64,000 nt of DNA from Diplonema papillatum (lineage: Eukaryota > Euglenozoa > Diplonemea > Diplonemida > Diplonemidae): the NCBI GenBank assembly GCA_030068145.1, contig JAPJBO010000001.1:682001-746000 (forward strand), given 5' to 3'. Under the pieces are notes generated by a model that was not told the DNA's origin, did no database searches, and saw only the letters and a program-made list of their open reading frames with translations. The position numbers and the translations under genes are program-made. Positions 41,813 through 52,325 of this stretch are shown here, one piece after another; within the stretch, counting starts at the first letter, position 1, and each line of letters begins with the position of its first letter.

Positions 41813-42094
41813 GCTATGACCGCGGCTGTTTGAAAATGTTTGATTGCCACTAACGAAAAGTGCTGCCGGGCTTCGCCCGCGGACTTCCTAAAAAAAATCC
41901 GCAATTTCAAGCGAATTTTAGCTCTAAGAAAGTTGGGTTGGCTCGACGGAGCTATTAGCACACCTTTAGTCTCTGAGAAGTTTTGGGAGCCTGTCGTTGC
42001 CGGCTAGAGAGCCGAAAAAAACAGAATTGGAGCAGCAATCGCGCCCGTGTTAAAACGCCCCGATATATAAGTGAACTTACATTCAAGCGATAAT
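41813..42094. other. Spacer with repeat D 3'-end signatures
   Basis: Contains TTTCAAGCGAATTTTAGCTC (about 41907) and AAGTGAACTTACATTC (42070). No gene is recognised. Confidence 0.4.
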
Positions 42095-42192
42095 TAGCTT
42101 ATAGCCACCACCACCACCACCCAGCCCACAGCCACAAAAAACTTTTTATCCAGCCCATACCCAGGAGGGCCTGAAACTTTTTATTTAGCTTA
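42095..42192 (-). repeat. Short repeat E, host of transposon insertions
   Basis: The consensus on the other strand is GGCTATAAGCTAAATAAAAAG followed by TTTTTTGTGGC (first part 21 bp counting the final G, given here as two overlapping words in other copies). Pieces occur at 42095-42192, 46382-46425, 47700-47722, 48047-48085, 50469-50490 and 52060-52195. Uninterrupted copies give the empty-site sequence for two transposon insertions. Confidence 0.75.
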
Positions 42193-42481
42193 GGGACGCC
42201 GGATTATTACCCGGGCGGGCCAACTGCCCGCCCAAAGGGGGGGGGACCCACCCACCCCCAAATCTCCCGAGCCCGCGGGATTTTTTTTTTTTTTTTTTTC
42301 AGTTTCCATTTTCACCACCTGCCTTCTTGGCTTCCGACACCGCTGAAATGTACGGGTTTGGTTTGTTCTGGAAAGTCGAAATAAGGGGGGGTTCGGGGGG
42401 CTTTGCCCCCCGACCGAACGGTACGGCTCTATCAGGTCCAAGTTGCACTGGCCCTCCCCAAAAACATCAACGCATTGGCCC

Positions 42482-42770
42482 AAACTTGGGCCATTACATC
42501 GATGTAACAGTGGTTTTCGGTCAAATTTGGCATTACATTGATGTAACAGTGGTTTTCGGTCAAATTCTGCCCATTACATTGATGTAACAGTGGTTTTCGG
42601 TCAGATTTGGGCCATTACATTGATGTAACAGTGGTTTTCTGTGAAATCCGGCCCATTACAGTGATGTAACAGTGGTTTTCCGCCAGATTTGGCCCATTAC
42701 ATTGATGTAACAGCGGTTTTCGGTCAGATTTGGGCCATTACATTGATGCAACAGTGGGTTTCCGTCGGAA
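42482..42770. repeat. 41-bp tandem array with palindromic core, 7 copies
   Basis: Units start at 42492, 42531, 42572, 42613, 42654, 42695 and 42736 (spacing 39 and then 41 bp). Each has a TTACATTGATGTAA-type palindrome (perfect in the first, TTACATCGATGTAA) followed by CAGTGGTTTTCGGTCA. Confidence 0.92.
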
Positions 42771-42821
42771 AATCTTCATGCAGTTTTGGGGAAAAATATT
42801 CCCACCAGAGGGGGGGGGGTA

Positions 42822-44035
42822 GGGGGGGTCAAAAGCTGTCAAAATAGGTCATTTTTTTGGGAACCACATAGGGGCTCCTAAAAGGCAATAAAATTTGGTA
42901 AACCGCCCCAGAACCGTATAGAAATGCCTAAAACATGCTTTTTGGCTGCTGAAGTGCCCCGAAAAGGCCTTTTTACGAGTGCCCAATTTTTGGTCTCAGG
43001 GTGGACACCGTTTGGTACCGGTGTTCTTCTTTTTAGGTGACAACCCCAAAAATAGTGACAGCATGAACCGAAGAAGGAAAACAACACTGCCCAAACCATG
43101 TATTTTTACTCAAAAGACTTTCCTGAGAGTTGGGGATGGTGGGGCTTCGTAGGAGGCATTGACAAGCGACTCAATGAGGTACGGCTTCGTAACGTGCCGC
43201 CCCCTCGAGTCCTTGACGTCAGCGCCAGCTTTCGTAGTGGCCTGTGTCGTGTAGCGTGCTACCGCAAGCTGCAGATACCCTGCCCTGAGCTGCTATGTCG
43301 TGGCAGTCCTATAAATCCACCGCCGAACCTTTTCGTTCAAGTCCAGTTTTCTATTTTTGTTCAAGCTCAACGTGCGTTGGGGTTAGGTACCAGAGATACA
43401 CCCCGGTGACCAGTATTGTCTTCCGTGCGTGTGCAATGCGACCCTTTCGGGGTGGTGTACGAAAGGCGAACTTGAATAAAAGACACTGTCGCGTGCATCC
43501 CTTCAACAAAAACGTTGGGATCTGGAAAATCCCACTACGGATGAGAGCATCTCATTGTTTTTCTCGGAAAGACATCGAACTTTGTGAATATCGCTCTAGC
43601 AGAAGTTCGGGGAAGAGCTGCTGCCTGCGGTGTCAACAACACCTCAGCTTGCGCAAGACTCAGAGAGCCTTTTGGGACGTTGTTAACCATCCAGACGAGC
43701 AACGTTCATAGCTGCCTTCCTCCTGGGTGTCGTTTGCCCTTTTCTTGCTTCCATTTGTGGCTGCCTGCACGTGATTGTAGCCTCATCTTTGCATGGTATG
43801 AACAGTGAAGCACACACACAGGCTGCTAGCCGGTACCAAACGGTGTCCACCCTAAAACCATCAACTAATACACCGCCCCCTGGGCCATTTTCCATGAAAC
43901 TTCCCCCAAAAACACGTTTCCGGGCATTTCTGAGGCGGGTTGCATGGGTTTTTAGCCTTAAACTGCCGCTAAGTCTACAGGCTGAAAATGTCACCATTTT
44001 GACGCAAAAAAAGACCTTTTGACCCCCCCTAGGGG
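42822..44035. mobile_element. Nested inverted-repeat unit inside the 4.19-kb element
   Basis: TAGGGGGGGTCAAAAG at 42822 is inverted as CTTTTGACCCCCCCTA ending near 44032. Inside it a perfect 24-bp pair (AGGGTGGACACCGTTTGG... at about 42998, complement at about 43831) forms a second nested stem. The ~800-bp centre has open frames without recognisable domains. This looks like one transposon inside another, but I cannot define target duplications. Confidence 0.45.
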
Positions 44036-44044
44036 GGGGGGGGG

Positions 44045-44410
44045 GGGGTGTGGGGCTAATTTATTCCGGGGTGGCTTTTTTCCCGACTTTTTTTCCGACT
44101 TTTTTATTCCGGGAGGTGAAAATTTGTTCCGGGAGGTGAAAATTTGTTCCGGGAAGTGAAAATTTGTTCCGGGAAGTGAAAATTTGTTCCGGGGAGGGCT
44201 TTTTTTCTGACTAATTTGTTCCGGGAACTGAAAATTTGTTCCGGGGTGGGCTTTTTTTCTGACTAATTTGTTCCTGGGTGAGTTTTTTTTCATTTCTGGG
44301 CTAAAAATGGCTGACACGATCAGTGAGCCTCCCAGAAAAAAAACTCACCCCGGAACAAATTTTCACTTCCCGGAACAAATTTTCAGTTTCGGAACAAATT
44401 TCTCCTCATT
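44045..44410. repeat. ~20-bp repeat array (GAAAATTTGTTCCGGGAAGT)n, left arm
   Basis: About six tandem units run from 44105 to 44280, followed by an inverted run (TTTTCACTTCCCGGAACAAA) at 44342-44400. The outer edge reads GGGGCTAATTTATTCCGGGG. Confidence 0.85.
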
Positions 44411-45317
44411 TCACGGGACCCGGACCGAACCTAGAACTGGGGAGGACTGGGCTGACAACCCAAGGTGGCAACAAACGGAATCTGCACACTGTACGGAGAG
44501 AAGACCACGCAACGGAGCAGGCGCCCACAAGTAGTTTCTAACAGGACTAATCCCTCACACCGAAGTGATCATGAGTTGCCTTAACGAAACGAACCTTGTG
44601 GAGCTGAACTCAGGCTGATAGGTGGGCCTTCTACAAAGTTAGCACCGGTCAGCAAGTAAACGTATCCGACCCCTGGCACAGAAGGCACGCGGTGGCTATC
44701 GGTAAACTGCATCGCGCACTCAGACAGACTTCTTGGAACCCTCAGTAACTTGGACGACAATTACACTGGACGAACGCAGGAAATGACGAATATCCTCGAG
44801 GCTGTCGTAAACTCTCTTCTCAAAAAATAATAAAATACATAGGGTCAAAAGGGCACCCCCCGAAAAAAAAAAAAGACTCCAGATACGCAAACTCTTTCGA
44901 ACGCTGCACACGGGTATCCTTCAAGTGACCTCTAACTATCTGTTGCATACGCGTATCCGGATCTGAAAGCCGAAGACTTTGTAACACTTTACCGCAACCG
45001 AAGTCGCGAACCGGGTTCGGCTTGCACTGCAAAAGCAGCATAATTGTGTCTTGCGCCCGAGCGCGGAAATCCGCCACCCGCCATTCGGCTAGAGTGCAAG
45101 AACACAATTGCGAAGCGTACTACAAACGGATAGTGTTACATAGGCGAACGAATCATGCGAGAACCTATGGAGGGGCCCCTCGACAGCTTTCAGAACACGG
45201 CATAGTAAGTCAAGAGTCGGATAAGCGAGTGTGCACATTCTACTCCCGTTTGATCTGCATTTTCCACCTTTCCCCCCTTTCTTTGATCTGCTGTGTGTAT
45301 TTGAAAAACGTTATCGC

Positions 45318-45996
45318 ATGCGGGTAAGCGGGGTTTGCGGGTTAGGGTTTGCGGGGTTTGCGGGTTAGGGTATGCGGGGTTTGCGGGGTTAGGGTACGCG
45401 GGGTTGCGGGTTCGGGTATGCGGGTTTGCGAGGTTAGGGTATGCGGGTTTGCGGGTTTGGGTATGCGGGTTTGGGTATGCGGGTTTGCGGGGTTAGGGTA
45501 CGCGGGTTAGGGTTTGCGGGGTTAGGGTACGCGGGTTTGCGGGTTAGGGTATGCGGGTTTGCGAGGTTAGGGTATGCGGGTTTGCGGGTTAGGGTATGCG
45601 GGTTTGGGTATGCGGGTTTGCGGGGTTTGCGGGTTAGGGTTTGCGGGGTTAGGGTACGCGGGTTGCGGGGTTCGGGTATGCGGGTTTGCGAGGTTAGGGT
45701 ATGCGGGTTTGCGGGTTAGGGTATGCGGGTTTGGGTATGCGGGTTTGCGGGGTTAGGGTACGCGGGTTTGCGGGTTAGGGTTTGCGGGGTTAGGGTACGC
45801 GGGTTTGCGGGTTCGGGTATGCGGGTTTGCGAGGTTAGGGTATGCGGGTTTGCGGGTTAGGGTATGCGGGTTTGGGTATGCGGGTTTGCGGGGTTTGCGG
45901 GTTAGGGTTTGCGGGGTTAGGGTACGCGGGTTGCGGGTTCGGGTTTGCGGGTTTGGGTATGCGGGTTCGGGTATGCGGGGGGGGTTCGGGTATGCG
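45318..45996 (+). repeat. Telomere-like degenerate minisatellite
   Basis: About 680 bp of alternating GGGTTAGGGT, TTTGCGGG, TATGCGGG and TACGCGGG words. Many units contain TTAGGG, the common eukaryotic telomere hexamer, but it is always separated by GCGGG spacers. This is an internal G-rich array rather than a true telomere. The Gly/Arg/Val/Cys-rich frames across it are low-complexity artefacts. Confidence 0.9.
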
Positions 45997-46054
45997 TACC
46001 TTACACAAAAATTGTAAAAATCACACACAAATGGTGAAAATCTGGAAAATTTGG

Positions 46055-46295
46055 CAAACCCCAAATTTTCAGTTTCCGGAACAAATTTTCACTTCCCGGA
46101 ATAAATTTTCACTTCCCGGAACAAATTTTCACTTCCCGGAATAAATTTTCACTTCCCGGAACAAATTTTCACTTCCCGGAACAAATTTTCACTTCCCGGA
46201 ACAAATTTTCACTTCCCGGAATAAATTTTCACTTCCCGGAACAAATTAGTCGGAAAAAAAGCCTGAAAAAAAGCTCACCCAGGAATAAATTAGCT
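46055..46295. repeat. ~20-bp repeat array, right arm (inverse of 44045-44290)
   Basis: Tandem TTTTCACTTCCCGGAA(C/T)AAA units (about nine), then AAATTAGTCGGAAAAAAAGC and CTCACCCAGGAATAAATTAGC. The outer edge is the inverse of the left arm's edge. The pair bounds 44050-46300, which includes the telomere-like array. Confidence 0.85.
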
Positions 46296-46424
46296 CGACC
46301 CGGGGGGGGGGGGACCCACCCACCAAAATTTTGGCGAAAGTAGTGGGCAGTTGGCCCGCCCGGGTAATAATCCGCTGTCCCTTATAGCCACAAAAAACTT
46401 TTTTATTAGCTTCGAGCCACATTT

Positions 46425-46690
46425 TGCAAATTTTTGGTCATTTTTCTGAGTTGGCAAAATTTTGGCCGAAATTTTGGTCGAATTTTTGGTCAATTTTTTG
46501 GTCGATTTTTTGGTCGATTTTTTTTGGTCGAAATTTTGGCCGAATTTTTGGTCAAATTTTTTTGGTCTACAATTAGACTCCAATCCCTGAGAACACACCC
46601 ATGGCGGCATTCGAACCATTTACCCAGCCATTGACTGTGACAACTGTGCGATTTGGATTCGAACTCTAGCCGAAGTTTCAAGTTGCAAGT
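46425..46690 (-). mobile_element. SINE-like element, (GGTCGAAA)n tail, left copy
   Basis: On the minus strand, a B-box-like GGTTCGAATGCC (about 46600-46611) is followed by GTGTGTTCTCAGGGATTGG and then a tail of AAATTTTTTTGACC/AAAATTCGGCC-type repeats (46565-46430). It is homologous to the inverted copy at 47345-47700. Confidence 0.5.
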
Positions 46691-47344
46691 TTTAAGCTTC
46701 AATGTGTGGGATACGTTTGGGGGAGTCAAGGTGATTCTGGGGTAGCGTCTAATCTCATCCCATTTCAACTTTGCATAGGTCTCGTTTACTTGGACCCCCT
46801 TTCTGCCGATTTGCGACTGCCGACTTGCGGCGCAACACTTTGGCAACCATTGCGTTGTTAACTCTCTTGACCTCCAACAACCTTCTTCGTCAGCGAGTTC
46901 GTGGCGGTGTTCGTGACAGGGACTATCAGATTCCTGCAACCCGGCGGCATCTGGACGGCCGTAGTGGGAGCAAGGGGTGCAACACGCTAAAAGACTGGAA
47001 GTACCGGGCATGAATGTTGCGAGCATACGGGTGCTGAAAGAGAAACCGGGAAACATGATACATAGCTCGCAGAGTTCAGACCAGAGTACTTTTCGATGAC
47101 ACTCTCTTTAACGCAAACGGCGGCAAGCTCTTTGTGGACGATTTTTCAAGTCGGTTCTTATGTAGCCTTCGGGCGTAAACACACGTGGGTGACCCTATCT
47201 AGACTGTTTCGAGTATCAGACTCCAAAAATTCAAGCAATGATAAGATGATACGACTGTTTCGAGTGATGAGATGATAAGACGTGGAGAAGGTTGGACTCG
47301 CTCCGGGTGGGCCCGAAAACCCCTACCTGCAGCGAAGATGATTG
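46691..47344. other. Spacer between the two inverted SINE-like copies
   Basis: No recognisable gene. Reading frames are short and without domains. Confidence 0.4.
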
Positions 47345-47705
47345 TGTGCAAATAGGTGTGGCCACTCCAGTAGCTGGCACAGCACGGCAAAGGGTTTTCT
47401 GGGTTCGAATTCCGTGTGTGATTTTTCTCAGATTGGCTAACAATTGACCAACTTTTTTGACCAAAATTTTGACCGATTTTTCTTGAACAAATTTTTTGGC
47501 CAAAATCTTTTGACCAAAAAAAATTGACCCAAAATCTTGACCAAATTTTTTTGACCGATTTTTTTTGACCAACATTTTTGGCCAAAATTTTGACCGATTT
47601 TTTTTGACCCAAAATTTTTGACCGATTTTTTTTGACCAAATTTTTTGGCCAATTTTTTGACCAAAAAATTTTGACCAAAAATTTCGACCAAGTTTTCACC
47701 AGGTG
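47345..47705 (+). mobile_element. SINE-like element, (TTTTGACCAAAA)n tail, right copy
   Basis: The plus strand carries an A-box-like TAGCTGGCACAGCACGG (about 47370), a B box GGTTCGAATTCC (47402-47413), a short body GTGTGTGATTTTTCTCAG ATTGG, and then ~250 bp of TTTTTGACC-type repeats. The A-to-B spacing is tRNA-like. It is inverted relative to 46425-46690. Confidence 0.55.
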
Positions 47706-47814
47706 GCTATAAGCTAAAAAAAAGTCGCGAAACCCAAGCACTACTCTACGAGAAAATACATAAAAACGCGGACAACAGACCGGTACGGGCTACAAGGCAA
47801 CCCCTGCTCAACTT

Positions 47815-48035
47815 GTAGAACGTGGGGGGCCCAAGATTACACTCCACGAAGTAATGTACTTAGTGTCGGTCACAAACAGTCCCGGATATGGCTAGCCATA
47901 ACCCATAACGAAAGCATGCACTAAATATACAAACCGTAACCATAAAGCCCTTCTTGCTCTAAGAGAACCCATTCATGAACGGTCACACGGAACCTAAAAC
48001 CCCGGTATTTCAAGCGAACTTCAACTCTAAACAGT
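47815..48035 (+). repeat. Dispersed repeat D, second full copy
   Basis: Nearly identical to 11881-12106, from GTAGAACGTGGGGGGCCC to CGAACTTCAACTCTAAA. It lacks a few bases near GGTCACACGGA. Confidence 0.8.
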
Positions 48036-48085
48036 TTCAGGACCTCCTGGCTATAAGCTAAATAAAAAGTTTTTTGTGGCTATAA

Positions 48086-50468
48086 GGGCAGACTATTTTT
48101 TTTTTTTGATCCGCGTCCTAGCGCGCGGAAAATTTTGGGAAACCGTGGAAAATAAAATAGTTGAAAAAAAAGAAAAGGCGTCGTTGAGCACGTGTACCCG
48201 TCGAAGTCGCTTCTCAGAACGGACATATTTTTAGCACGTGTTTTGTGTGTGTGCGAAGGACCTGTTTTGTATCTTTACATGGCAGGTTCCAACGCTGCCA
48301 ACTTTCTTTTTTGTACTGACATGTCCAGCGTGGTATGTTGTTCCAAAAAAAAATAGTTTTTCTTTTTTGCTGTGGGAAGGGTACAACAGGGTGCCATGGG
48401 ACTCCAGATGGTCACTGAAGTCCGAGCTTCGGCTGCGGAAACACCAAACCCCGCTCGTGGGGCCAACAACGACACGTCAGCGGAACGCCGGATTAGAAGC
48501 TCGCTGCGAATCTCTAATTTGTTTTGACCCCCTGACCTATCTGTTGCTGCAGCACCACGAAAGCTGTGATGCCGGCAAATTTCACCTTGACTAAGTGAGT
48601 GTTGCATGCTAATGCAAAAACAGGGCACTAGCAAAGGGAAGGGACACTGCCGTGTTTTTGCGCCATCGATGTTGAGATTGGTGCAGTGAAGGATCGACAC
48701 CTCCTTGAGATCAACGACCTGTCGTTGTCCTTCATGAAGATGTTTCAGCAGATCATAAAAGACCGTCACCTCCAGACGCCTGCCGAGTATGATGATGATG
48801 TGGTGGTGTCGGCTAGGGCTGATAGCAGGAGTGTGTGGAGAGATGTTTCTCTTGGGATGATGCAGGCCATGGACTCCATGCAGTACCGGGAGGTTCGGTA
48901 CGTTGTGAAGCAAAAGTTCCCGTAGCGAAAACCTGTCAACGCCTTCGACCTGTAAAAAAGAGCCAAGCCCGCGTGAAGCCGCTGCAAATGGGTGAAACGA
49001 AGTATTTGACAGGGCCCTCCTGGTCGATGAAAAAGGGCATCCGTTCTATCAGGAAGTGGCCAAGACCCTTCGCAAACTTGATGGGCTCCCACTTTCTGTG
49101 CAGCTGTTGCAGTAGTATGAGGGCACCAACAAGGTGATTGCCCAGCGCCGTACCGCCGACATCCCCCGGTGCACCCTTCAGAACCTGCAAGAACAAGAAA
49201 GTAGCCTGAGAAATGTGTTGGCCTTGCCGTGGGTTGCAGAGCTGAGGTATTCTCAGCATCCACTGCACGAAACTGCAGGAAGTGAGAGATGTGGTGTATA
49301 CCCGTATCGTCACGCAGCAAGCGCAAAACCAGCAGCGCACTGAGCAACGCAGTGCGGGAGTTCCATCCAGAAACCCTGTTTGCGACTGGGAGCAGTCCAT
49401 CGTGAAAGCGGAGGGGTCTTCTTCTGTTGGGGAGAGCTGGAAGGGCAATTCGCCGAGGCAACTCGAGCCGTTTTCACTGGACACCGTGCCCAGCCTCTCT
49501 GACGATCGCCGTGCTCGGTTCAAGCAGATCCACGGGGTACGGGGTAAAGACGAGCTTCCCCTTCGGTGTCCACAAATACAACGCTGGGGGGCAAGCGCTT
49601 GGTATTCAAGCTGCCACCGAGCGACCGCCGCCTACAGGATGATGTCGCAAAGGCGTTCAAGTCGTGCATCGGGACGGGGAAAAGGTTCCACACCCGGGCC
49701 ATGAGGATGAAATTCGTCGAGGTCTGGAAGTCATCTCGGGTTCCGCGTACCATCCTCAAGACGATGTACATGTTCGTGACCGGAGATGTGAATCCCCTGC
49801 GCACACCAACCGAAAGCCACCTGGCTGAACTCCTCACAACTGATTTCACCCCAGTGAGGTTGCATTCCGAAGCTCGTCAAAAGAGTCCAAACACGACGGC
49901 TACTGGGACGCCATGGGCCGCGTTCTTGAGAAGTGCGGTACTGTCGTGGACGAGAGGCGTCATGGAGAAGTTTCACGCCTCACGGTTGAGGCCCCCGCAA
50001 GCATCCGGCTTCTCATGGAAGAAGTGCAGAAGCGGCTTCCGGCCGATGCCCACGTCCCGTCCGAAACGTGGGTACGATACCAATTCTGGCCGAGTACGCC
50101 GAACAACACGGTTGCTCCCAGGCAGTCGCAAGGCCCACGACTAGACGCCTACTACTGTCGGTGGCAGCAGCTCTACGCTGAAGGCTCACCTGGTCCCTCC
50201 GTACAACAAAAAGCCTGAGCACACGCAGACGACAGTTATTTCCCAGTGCAAAAAGTCGCCGAAGAATCAAAGTGAGGGGCGCGTACCCCTCCGGCCCCCC
50301 ACCCCCCGACCGCTTGCCACCAAGACCCCCCCCCCTCCACACAGGAACCCACAGGCCAGGTGACTTGCCAAACTATTTTTTTAAAAAAACTATTTTTTTT
50401 TTGCGCGCGCGCGCGGAAAGTTTTCAAGGGTCGGGGGACGCGGATCAAAAAATAAAAATAGTCTGCCC
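48086..50468. mobile_element. 2.38-kb TIR transposon with TAA target duplication
   Basis: The left end GGGCAGACTATTTTT and the ~33-bp inverse at the right (ending AAATAGTCTGCCC) both continue through GATCCGCGTCC. TAA flanks both sides (48083-48085 and 50469-50471). Removing the element restores repeat E (GGCTA-TAA-GCTAAATAA). The end sequence differs from that of the 4.19-kb element, but the target nucleotide triplet is the same one on the complementary reading. It contains broken coding remnants. Confidence 0.8.
48680..50218 (+). pseudogene. Broken coding remnants inside the 2.38-kb element
   Basis: Several plus-strand fragments in shifting frames look protein-coding. One includes SLSFMKMFQQIIKDRH (48690-48925). 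Another is DDVAKAFKSCIGTGKRFHTR with FVEVWKSSRVPRTILKTMY (about 49610-49800). A third is SIRLLMEEVQKRLPADAHVP with SETWVRYQFWP (about 49990-50100). I associate PS-x-x-W-x-x-x-QFWP with ORFs of transposons in algae and other protists, from memory and without a family name. They are plausibly this element's decayed transposase or accessory gene. Confidence 0.4.
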
Positions 50469-50485
50469 TAAGCTAAATAATAAGC

Positions 50486-50596
50486 ATTTATTCGGCAAGA
50501 TAATTTCCGTTTATTTTGCCGAGGTGTCGGTTTTAGTCCCGAGGGACTAAAACCGACACCGAGGCAAAATTGGCGGAAATTATTGCCGAATAAATG
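50486..50596. repeat. Long hairpin (~53-bp arms)
   Basis: A nearly perfect inverted repeat is centred near 50541. GTGTCGGTTTTAGTCCC is followed after 3 bases by its complement. The outer arms pair TTTATTCGGCAAGATAATT with AATTATTGCCGAATAAA. It directly follows the right end of the 2.38-kb element. Confidence 0.9.
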
Positions 50597-50604
50597 ATTT
50601 TATT

Positions 50605-52066
50605 GGGAAAGCTAAATTCCCGAGGATGGAAAGAAAACCATACTGCTTTGCAGTTATGTTGGTGTCTAGCAGAACGTTGCGTAGCAAATGTGCACGGCAG
50701 AACGTTGTGTAAGACGTTGAGCATATTGCTTTGCAGTTACGTTGGTGTTTAGCAGAACGTTGCGTAGCAGAACGTTGTGTGTCTGAGACATTGCGTAGCA
50801 GAACGTTGTGTAGGAGTGGAGTTGTTGTAAGTGACGGGTCACAGATCAATGTGCCTGGTTGTTCTGCTGCAACTGGGGGAGTCCCGGCAGGTTGACGTTG
50901 TAGTTCACAACATACGATGCTGCTTGCATGGGCGCTTGCATGAAGGACTGCACAGGTGCTGTCGTGCTGGGTAGGACTGTTGGATGAGCGCTGCGGACAA
51001 GTGCTGCGGGTTTCTTTCTGCGAGGTCTTGATATGGATCAGAAAGGATGAATTAGACTCAAAACGAGCTCAAAACACGCGATTTCACTCACCACAGGGAG
51101 AAAAAAAATTTTGCGAGGGGTCTCCCCTACAGATTTCTGCCTACGACCTTATTCTGCGCCGCCAGCTATTTTCAGTCGGAAAAATAAACGAATTTATTTC
51201 CCTAGGGACAATAAATTTTATTTACTGCCTGTCACCTGACTTTTCTGCATCCTTGAGAGCTACTTTTCTTACACGCATAGCTACTTTTCTTGCACGCATA
51301 ACTACTTTTCTTGCACGCATAACTACTTTTCTTGCACGCATAGCAGTTTTGGTTTCCAGGTGCTTTTGTGGGCAATACAGGTGCATTCGTGGGCAATCCG
51401 GTGTCTTCGTGGGCAATTCAGGTGCATTCCTGTGGAAGTCACAGTGCCAGCAAGGGACAAGGTTGACGCGCATGATCTGACACTACTGAGCGAACGGAAG
51501 AATGATTCGAATGGCAGGACCAGCTCATTCGTTGCAGGATGCGGAGCAGGAGTCGGAGACCGCCAGTGCCATGGAAACTTGGGATGCTGACGTGCAGCGT
51601 ACACTGTGTGAGCCGACTGTGCTGTTGTACACGACAGGAACTTGGCCAGTAGCTGGTGTGTGGCACGCCATCTTTCTTGGCCTTCGGCGTCTCCCACACC
51701 CTGTGCGTAGCTCTCTCGGACGCAGAAAAGTCAGGTGATGCGGCAGTAAAGCAATCTTCTTACCTCGAGACGTCGTTTTCTTGCACTCGGTTTTCCAGAT
51801 TGCCACTCGAGCCCTGCGGGCTCTCGTGGCAATCTGGAAAACCTCGTGCAAGAAAACGACTTTTCTCTCGGTGAATAAATAGCTATTATTTGTTTCGACT
51901 GAAAATAGCTGGCGGCGCAAAATAAATTCCGAGATCGGAAAAAATAAATTCGTTTATTTGTCCGGCCTGTGTAAACACAACGGAATCCTGTCAAAAAATA
52001 AACGAAATTTATCGTCACGCTCCTCAAGCCATTTCCACCAGAGGGAATTTGTTTTTCCCAATAAAA
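50605..52066. mobile_element. Possible TIR element with arrays and a hairpin
   Basis: TTGGGAAAGCTAAATTCCC (50605) is inverted at 52046-52066 (GGGAATTTGTTTTTCCCAA), with TA on both outer sides. Inside are an ~84-bp direct duplication (TTTGCAGTTA(T/C)GTTGGTGT, about 50645-50780), five 21-bp units with ACTTTTCTTGCACGCATA (51255-51347), four short GTGGGCAAT(A/C)C units (51365-51440), and inverted copies of GCGCCGCCAGCTATTTTCAG (51160 and 51910). No transposase is recognised. Confidence 0.4.
51772..51860. repeat. Hairpin with 42-bp arms and 4-base loop
   Basis: GTCGTTTTCTTGCACTCGG, then TTTTCCAGATTGCCACTCG, AGCCC, loop TGCG, and the near-complete complement. It is large and regular enough to fold as a precursor-like stem if transcribed, or to be a palindromic mobile element. 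Confidence 0.9.
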
Positions 52067-52195
52067 AGTTTTTTGTGGCTACAAGCTAAATAAAAAGATT
52101 TGAAAGTGCTATAAGCTAATTAAAAAGTTTTACTTTAGGTGGCTATAAGCTAAATAAAAAGTTAGCAGGTGGCTATTAGATAAAAAGCCCTACAT
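52060..52195 (+). repeat. Repeat E array, four units
   Basis: Four units of (G)GCTATAAGCTAAATAAAAAG in tandem with variants (GCTACAAGC, GTGCTATAAGCTAATTAA, GTGGCTATTAGATAAAAAG). These are uninterrupted forms of the site used by both TIR transposons. Confidence 0.85.
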
Positions 52196-52325
52196 TCAAA
52201 GACGTGCAATGTATTGTAGTGGAAACAAGTATTGTCGCAATTAATCAACTCAATTTGGCAACGACTTCAAAGTTGTATCTTCCGCTTTGCGGAAGAGACT
52301 CGTGGGCTACAACGATCAAGCAATT

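Follow-up and report, generated by a model that had tools for sequence, protein, structure and literature searches.

A 64,000-bp stretch of the Diplonema papillatum genome (contig JAPJBO010000001.1; C1:682001-746000 in the contig numbering used here, hereafter the window) was found to carry two DNA transposons, element 1 and element 2, nested within a third, designated E. Both are inserted at the same TTA/TAA triplet of a tandem unit, GGCTATAAGCTAAATAA, which forms the subterminal part of E. Searches of the whole genome (271 Mb, 2910 contigs) revealed that this central triplet receives the ends of several transposon families, while the unit's two remaining TAAs receive almost none. The E unit can best be understood as a landing pad acting mainly through its fit to a general TTA/TAA target preference of several families, a reading to which we give a probability of about 0.8.

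The terminal inverted repeats (TIRs) of element 1 were 38 nt long with 95% complementarity (42192-42229/46345-46382), and those of element 2 were 34 nt long with 97% (48085-48118/50436-50469), one flanking base per arm being included in each case. Element 2 is flanked by TAA at 48083-48085 and 50469-50471. When a single triplet was kept, the flank pairs of element 1 and of element 2 both restored GGCTATAAGCTAAATAA. A preliminary description of this locus proved correct to the base in its coordinates, its TIRs, the triplets and the sequence restored. Intact copies of the unit were present in the window at 48049 and 52141 (exact), and near copies at 52077 (GGCTACAAGC) and 47705 with one mismatch and at 52107 with two. 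The preliminary description had proposed three uninterrupted empty-site controls, among which the copies at 48049 and 52141 hold, while the copy placed at 52080 (52077) carries one substitution. Its picture of the unit hit by element 2 must also be extended, as a further insert (50481-52059) lies in the same unit. Including the interrupted half at 42179, six unit matches with at most three mismatches were found, compared to 0.00 expected in 100 shuffles, and a chance origin of the shared unit is ruled out by this expectation.

The preliminary description treated the unit as a short stand-alone repeat. This could not be upheld: end matches and alignment ruled out a free-standing repeat and identified the unit as the end of E, which here holds both inserts. 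The 21-mer GGCTATAAGCTAAATAAAAAG gave 1028 genome matches at up to two mismatches (reversed control 0), in clusters mostly of 29 or 35 bp spacing and in inverted orientation at the two E ends. Terminal searches matched 229 R and 143 L ends of E, 100 of each being listed. The listed ends yielded 67 candidate pairs, to which one in C5 was added by hand (68 in total); 49 were retrieved whole and 48 were aligned against one 1790-bp reference, one pair being excluded for its two L ends. The termini consist of imperfect TIRs (GGGCTTTTTATCTAATAGCCACC / GGGATAATTAGCTTATAGCCACC) plus the inverted unit arrays. An exact 9-bp target site duplication (TSD) was observed in 38 of the 48 whole copies, and in 45 when up to one mismatch was allowed; exact matches numbered 1-6 at each of the other lengths from 5 to 12, and 12 out of 2256 when flanks were mispaired. 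The empty length of E is 0.7-1.8 kb, and 23 of the 48 whole copies, spanning 696-1804 bp, are without any insert of at least 60 bp. The position of both inserts between the E ends could also be explained by a single composite element of which they are own parts. This explanation is almost certainly wrong, being ruled out by the empty E copies, by the separate TSD of each insert and by the many non-E sites at which both occur.

Genome-wide, 242 ends of element 1 (control 1), 627 of element 2 (control 87) and 696 of a third family, T3, with the end GGGTAGGCGG (control 26), could be matched, and flanks were read from 100 listed ends each. Distinct 10-mer flanks ended in TTA/TAA in 48/69 cases for element 1, 71/86 for element 2 and 69/77 for T3, and the varied flanks of each family indicate many targets per family. 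Varied target sites had been named in the preliminary description as a sign against a preferred site; they do exist for both elements, but the E triplet is strongly favoured among them. The half-site TTTTTATTTAGCTTA followed by GGG gave 57 matches (control 0), of which 54 were kept and three were dropped for a mismatch in GGG. Clustered by end type, as the preliminary description had proposed, these belonged to T3 (38), the element 1 type (5), the element 2 type (5, namely 4 plus one variant) and others (6, namely three GGGRGAGAGGATTTTTACTA ends of the GGGRGAGAGG type and three single end types), the half-site counts at all unit triplets, and the GGGRGAGAGGATTTTTACTA and single types throughout, being read from one side only. 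At comparable stringency, a single match was obtained at each of the two remaining TAAs (at one of them with 1 in the reversed control as well, at the other a T3-like end), which bears out the earlier suggestion of a landing pad through target preference. Given 1028 intact units, the occupancy of the central triplet is approximately 5%. Within the 48 aligned E copies, the recognised TTA/TAA-type insertions were all central (T3 in 9, element 2 in 2 and element 1 in 1), with the exception of an element-1 insertion in C380 that is off by one base (TAT). E sequence lies on both sides of the T3 insertion in 8 of the 9 copies and on one side in C92.

Such an accumulation could also arise if inserts anywhere in E were harmless and therefore survived, without any sequence preference. 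Counting rows of at least 60 bp (a 46th, representing a tandem-unit expansion, was dropped), 45 inserts were found in the 48 E copies, 28 of them within arrays of the unit and 17 in interior sequence, which points to a general tolerance of inserts, and the excess left over by the matrix model below fits the same explanation. However, the two TAAs lying 5 and 9 bp from the central triplet, equally numerous and presumably just as neutral, have one end each against 54 in the one-sided counts. This contradicts harmlessness as the sole cause, and we consider it very unlikely.

The target preference was modelled using position matrices trained on flanks read from one side at sites outside E (43, 66 and 61 for element 1, element 2 and T3, in this order throughout) against a background of 843 window TTA/TAA sites outside E. 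The leave-one-out area under the curve (AUC) was 0.73, 0.87 and 0.94, compared to null means of 0.47-0.48, revealing in all three families a preference that extends past the TSD, part of which may be base composition. Targets of T3 and element 2 had T-rich sequence towards the site from both sides, as in the E unit. The central triplet of the commonest unit (E1653) outranked 818, 841 and 841 of the 843 background sites, while its neighbour TAAs were predicted at 0.0005-0.07 of the central triplet. Since these matrices were trained outside E, the high rank of the E1653 triplet indicates that the pad mainly fits a general preference.

Several observations weigh against this reading. Relative to the average TTA/TAA site, the matrix model gives an enrichment of 4-, 29- and 17-fold, while the observed excess was estimated at about 130-, 70- and 450-fold, using 4, 5 and 38 landings over approximately 121, 270 and 335 copies and the density of TTA/TAA in a single 54-kb stretch. 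An excess of about 2- to 30-fold is thus left beyond the model, which may be due to a compartment, to selection, to recruitment or to a more complex motif. The T3 matrix ranked units E72 and E1624 at the 77th and 82nd percentile only, and T3 is present in low-ranked E1624 in C53, C331 and C219; the best T3 score in E (E1720, 8.19 vs 4.90) held no insert in any of the 48 copies. The background sites come from a window rich in genes and GC, which favours AT-rich targets in the matrix test. Element 1 was the least strict on TTA/TAA, 21 of its 69 flanks being different (TTT 6, AAA 3 and more). Ordinary E sequence was found on one side only of the T3 copies in C92, C52 and C16. In addition, C1623 and C1740, as well as C533 and C2266, are duplicates with the same E flank, and the T3 insertions in C53 and C331 lie in a common unit, are 98.6-99.7% identical and are perhaps duplicates.

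The residual excess and the targeting of low-scoring units would also be expected if E units were bound by a protein, of the host or of a transposon, that recruited other transposition complexes, and inserts that do not use TTA/TAA (CCTACCC, TGGTGTGATCC and TGAGCC types) occur in the arrays as well. Nevertheless, preferences learned outside E already pick the central triplet of the commonest unit, and such tethering appears unlikely as the main cause. The duplicates, the near-identical T3 copies and the recurrent element-1 flanks CGGTTGCTGTAA/CAAGCGTGCTTA, which look alike across many contigs, could in turn reflect a few early insertions multiplied by E transposition, duplication or gene conversion. 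Against this, T3 was found at many distances from both E ends (45, 73-74, 109 and 138 from the R end; 75-79, 109, 137-138 and 167-173 from the L end), with host E flanks that mostly differ. Element 1 occupies units E107 (window; a copy without one unit), E1682 (C76) and E43 (C1623), and element 2 occupies E1653 (window; in opposite orientation in C344), E1624 (C149) and E107 (C360). A fourth end type occurs in E107 (C533) and E1682 (C631), and E107 has been targeted by element 1, element 2, T3 and this fourth type. These comparisons, with part of the 54 half-sites read on both sides, render multiplication of a few insertions quite improbable.

E is thus a TIR transposon that duplicates 9 bp of its target and has ends made up of arrays of the 29/35-bp unit, each unit carrying a T-rich / AGC-TTA-TAG / A-rich site. 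According to the landing-pad reading, several TTA/TAA-duplicating families share a wider preference for this context, so that approximately ten targets are available in each full E copy. E came first in the window (TSD TACATTCAA); element 1 in a unit of the R end, and element 2 and other DNA in the L end, would have followed.

The features of the window locus are collected in Table 1. The window E had 97% identity over 1654 aligned bases to the E reference. Its R end lies at the left (GCGATAATTAGC, with the second base changed from GGG), and its L end lies at the right (GGGCTTTTTATC on the minus strand). The 1579-bp insert ends TAAGCATTTATTCGG...TTTTTCCC are not inverted repeats, and a relative with TTATT flanks was found in C48. 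A domain scan of the window open reading frames (ORFs) gave eukaryotic domains, e.g. ARF GTPase and myosin head.

Table 1. Features of the E locus in the window
Feature	Position	Strand	Evidence or remark
Left 9-bp TSD of E, TACATTCAA	42078..42086	.	identical 9-mer at 52191-52199
E element, 10.1 kb including nested inserts	42087..52190	.	end match, blastn, alignment
R-end array of E, tandem subterminal units	42087..42192	-	sequence, blastn
TSD TTA of element 1, left copy	42190..42192	+	sequence
Element 1, 4189 bp, TIR GGGACRSCGGATTATTACCCGGGC	42193..46381	.	GGGACG start, CCC end
TSD TTA of element 1, right copy	46382..46384	+	sequence
E interior, reference ~135-1602	46382..47723	.	blastn 91-94% identity
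~305-bp insert or replacement in E	47724..48028	.	no clear TIR/TSD
L-end array of E, inner units	48029..48085	+	intact unit 48049; interrupted unit ends TAA 48085
Element 2, 2383 bp, TIR GGGCAGACTATTTTT	48086..50468	+	GGGCAG start, CCC end
Broken coding pieces in element 2	49026..50182	+	tblastn vs T3 protein residues 159-568, 36-45% identity
1579-bp insert, E unit of element 2	50481..52059	.	AATAA flanks 50476-50480 / 52060-52064
L-end array of E and L terminus	52060..52190	+	units 52077, 52107, 52141; 99% identity to E 1660-1790
Right 9-bp TSD of E, TACATTCAA	52191..52199	.	sequence

No long ORF was seen in element 1. The element contains a GGGTTA-like, telomere-like minisatellite with a period of 14/22/45 (window 45322-45996) and inverted arrays of a 20-bp unit, AAATTTTCACTTCCCGGAAC, at 44074-44196 and 46152-46274 (123 nt, 92%). 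Element-1 copies with the flanks CGGTTGCTGTAA / CAAGCGTGCTTA were present in C27, C36, C73, C102, C186, C333, C339 and C353 and probably represent element 1 carried by another repeat. Among the ends listed, CCCTTA or CCCTAA was seen at many targets of all three families, as if they landed in the TSD beside another GGG-ended element, e.g. T3-T3 at C35:551918-551958.

Other elements were also seen within E. TA-flanked elements with the ends CCTACCCCCCCCCGTGTTTA (CCTACCC type) lie in E units, on or beside the central triplet, at L032, L035 and L063 (C69, C106 twice, C513). TTATA-flanked TGGTGTGATCC elements occur in E units of C7 and C513, and TGAGCC inserts flanked by ATAAA or AATCA occur in E unit arrays. 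The interior sequence GACCAAAATTTT hosts elements with the ends GGGAAACTTACAAATATATGCGC / GGGTAATATACCAGGATATGCGC in C48, C142, C360, C476 and C562 (L029, L039, L054/L055, L059, L065/L066), with a 9-bp TSD in two copies (AAATTTTTT, GATTTTTTT). Judged by eye from the flanks, several E insertions lie in the apparent L terminus of other E copies (C988, C76, C1072, C1460, C2020; flank TATTAGATAAAA or near variants). A common insert, GGACGGTCTTT...CGCGCCCAAACC, near E reference ~1143 in C360 and C496 (near 1194 in C286) may mark an E subfamily. The genome also contains many copies of a cousin tandem unit of 30 bp, GTGGCTATAAGGGAATAAAATTCTTTTTTC (e.g. C2:877663-878103 and C3:120989-124840), probably as the ends of other transposons, and T3 was found in two of these cousin units among the listed T3 ends. 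A left half-site pattern, STGGCTATAAGGG, was unusable, as the cousin repeat GGCTATAAGGGAATAAAATTC has a native GGG there. Regarding tRNA-like content of E, GGTTCGAATCC motifs were noticed by eye only, and ARAGORN found none in L009.

A T3 copy nested in an E copy of C48 contains a 1577-aa open frame without stops, filling most of the copy. Pieces of this protein matched element 2, both the window copy (49026-50182, Table 1) and the copy in C360 (34-45% identity). The view that the two window elements have unrelated ends can be kept in so far as their TIRs differ, but it does not extend to the coding pieces of element 2, which are homologous to the T3 protein. Several short T3 copies retain residues ~1462-1507 only. 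A search with a 441-aa T3 core gave 116 matches, of which 12 rows, the query included, span the whole query at 100% printed identity (10 at 1025.5 bits; five within a 1577-aa open frame), the other matches being partial or diverged. Judged from these sequences, the T3 protein family looks recently active. Residues D700 (DGGPEHN) and E744 (ERVM) were kept in four of four alignment rows of relatives, and D588 was aligned in two of four, with further tblastn pieces covering the other two; in this alignment the three residues look DDE-like. We infer that the T3 protein may be the transposase and may select its target through the sequence or shape of the DNA. Within a nested, T3-bounded copy (6.16 kb), an ORF (L045:3429-5567, minus strand) gave a weak phage-integrase match at E 2e-5, below the cut-off, and is perhaps a further inserted element.

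Profile and structure searches gave no assignment of the T3 protein. The T3 ORF had no Pfam match at E 0.01, only four hits of E 0.14-4 being obtained across the ORF and its parts, and no usable NCBIfam match. A PDB search with the protein itself was empty and one with its alignment produced three hits at E 0.55-0.97, none meaningful, and a viral contigs scan gave no viral relative. The four ORFs of the element 2 coding region were likewise without a Pfam match. Similar unnamed proteins are presumably present in cnidarian genomes. T3 and element 2 could tentatively be taken for an undescribed DDE-type superfamily with TTA/TAA targets and an unrelated 1577-aa protein, sharing the E-unit pad with other families genome-wide and maybe sparing genes, though we hold this to be rather doubtful.

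The locus matters in that a single genome with roughly a thousand targets, almost identical and presumably neutral, constitutes a natural integration assay. Nearly all insertions fall in one of the three TTA/TAA triplets of the unit, so that target choice becomes readable without much filtering by selection. The locus also indicates that the repeated ends of one transposon can absorb other transposons.

Jiang and Wessler reportedly described, in Plant Cell in 2001, nested miniature inverted-repeat transposable elements (MITEs) and multimers, with the insertion preference read from nested elements. As far as that account is available, small transposons are nested in one another in both systems, whereas here the pad is one triplet of the tandem subterminal unit of a transposon with a 9-bp TSD, at which several end types have landed, with controls inside the same unit.

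In the available portions of the sources, PIF/Harbinger elements (PHIS) have a TWA TSD (PMC4482050, PMC2836001) and a target preference that extends past the 3-bp TSD (PMC2836001). A TWA TSD, loosest in element 1, and a wider target preference were likewise found for elements 1, 2 and T3. These elements behave like PIF/Harbinger, but membership is not claimed because the PIF/Harbinger transposase domain was not found: a six-frame search for DDE_Tnp_4 (PF13359) gave 0 genome matches at E 0.001, homology below the sensitivity of the profile being possible and the family being detected in 1/14 control genomes. Unlike in PIF/Harbinger, T3 has one 1577-aa ORF without a Pfam match, the sole long ORF of the single full T3 copy read. 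A Myb/SANT domain, which PIF/Harbinger elements carry in a second ORF, was not found in this 1577-aa ORF.

E resembles Mutator-like elements (MULEs), for which an 8-11-bp TSD is given in the accessible part of PMC3903597, in its 9-bp TSD and its TIRs, imperfect as these are. It differs from MULEs in its tandem-unit ends, and no transposase was seen in the E copies read, no search aimed at a MULE/MURA transposase domain having been made. The piggyBac transposon Pokey, a DNA transposon that lands in a repeated ribosomal DNA (rDNA) sequence (PMC3849761), shares with the present case a repeated landing site; as far as that source could be consulted, the host there is rDNA and one family is involved, whereas here the host is a transposon and several families are involved. 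In the portion of the literature covered, no description was found of tandem subterminal units acting as a pad for multiple families. Within the same literature, nesting through target preference and, in PIF/Harbinger, a preference past the TSD are already known. The present analysis adds an internally controlled case in which several families use a single triplet in the tandem subterminal unit of a different transposon. It also adds a putative DDE-like protein family, that of T3, which is missed by the profiles of the libraries searched.

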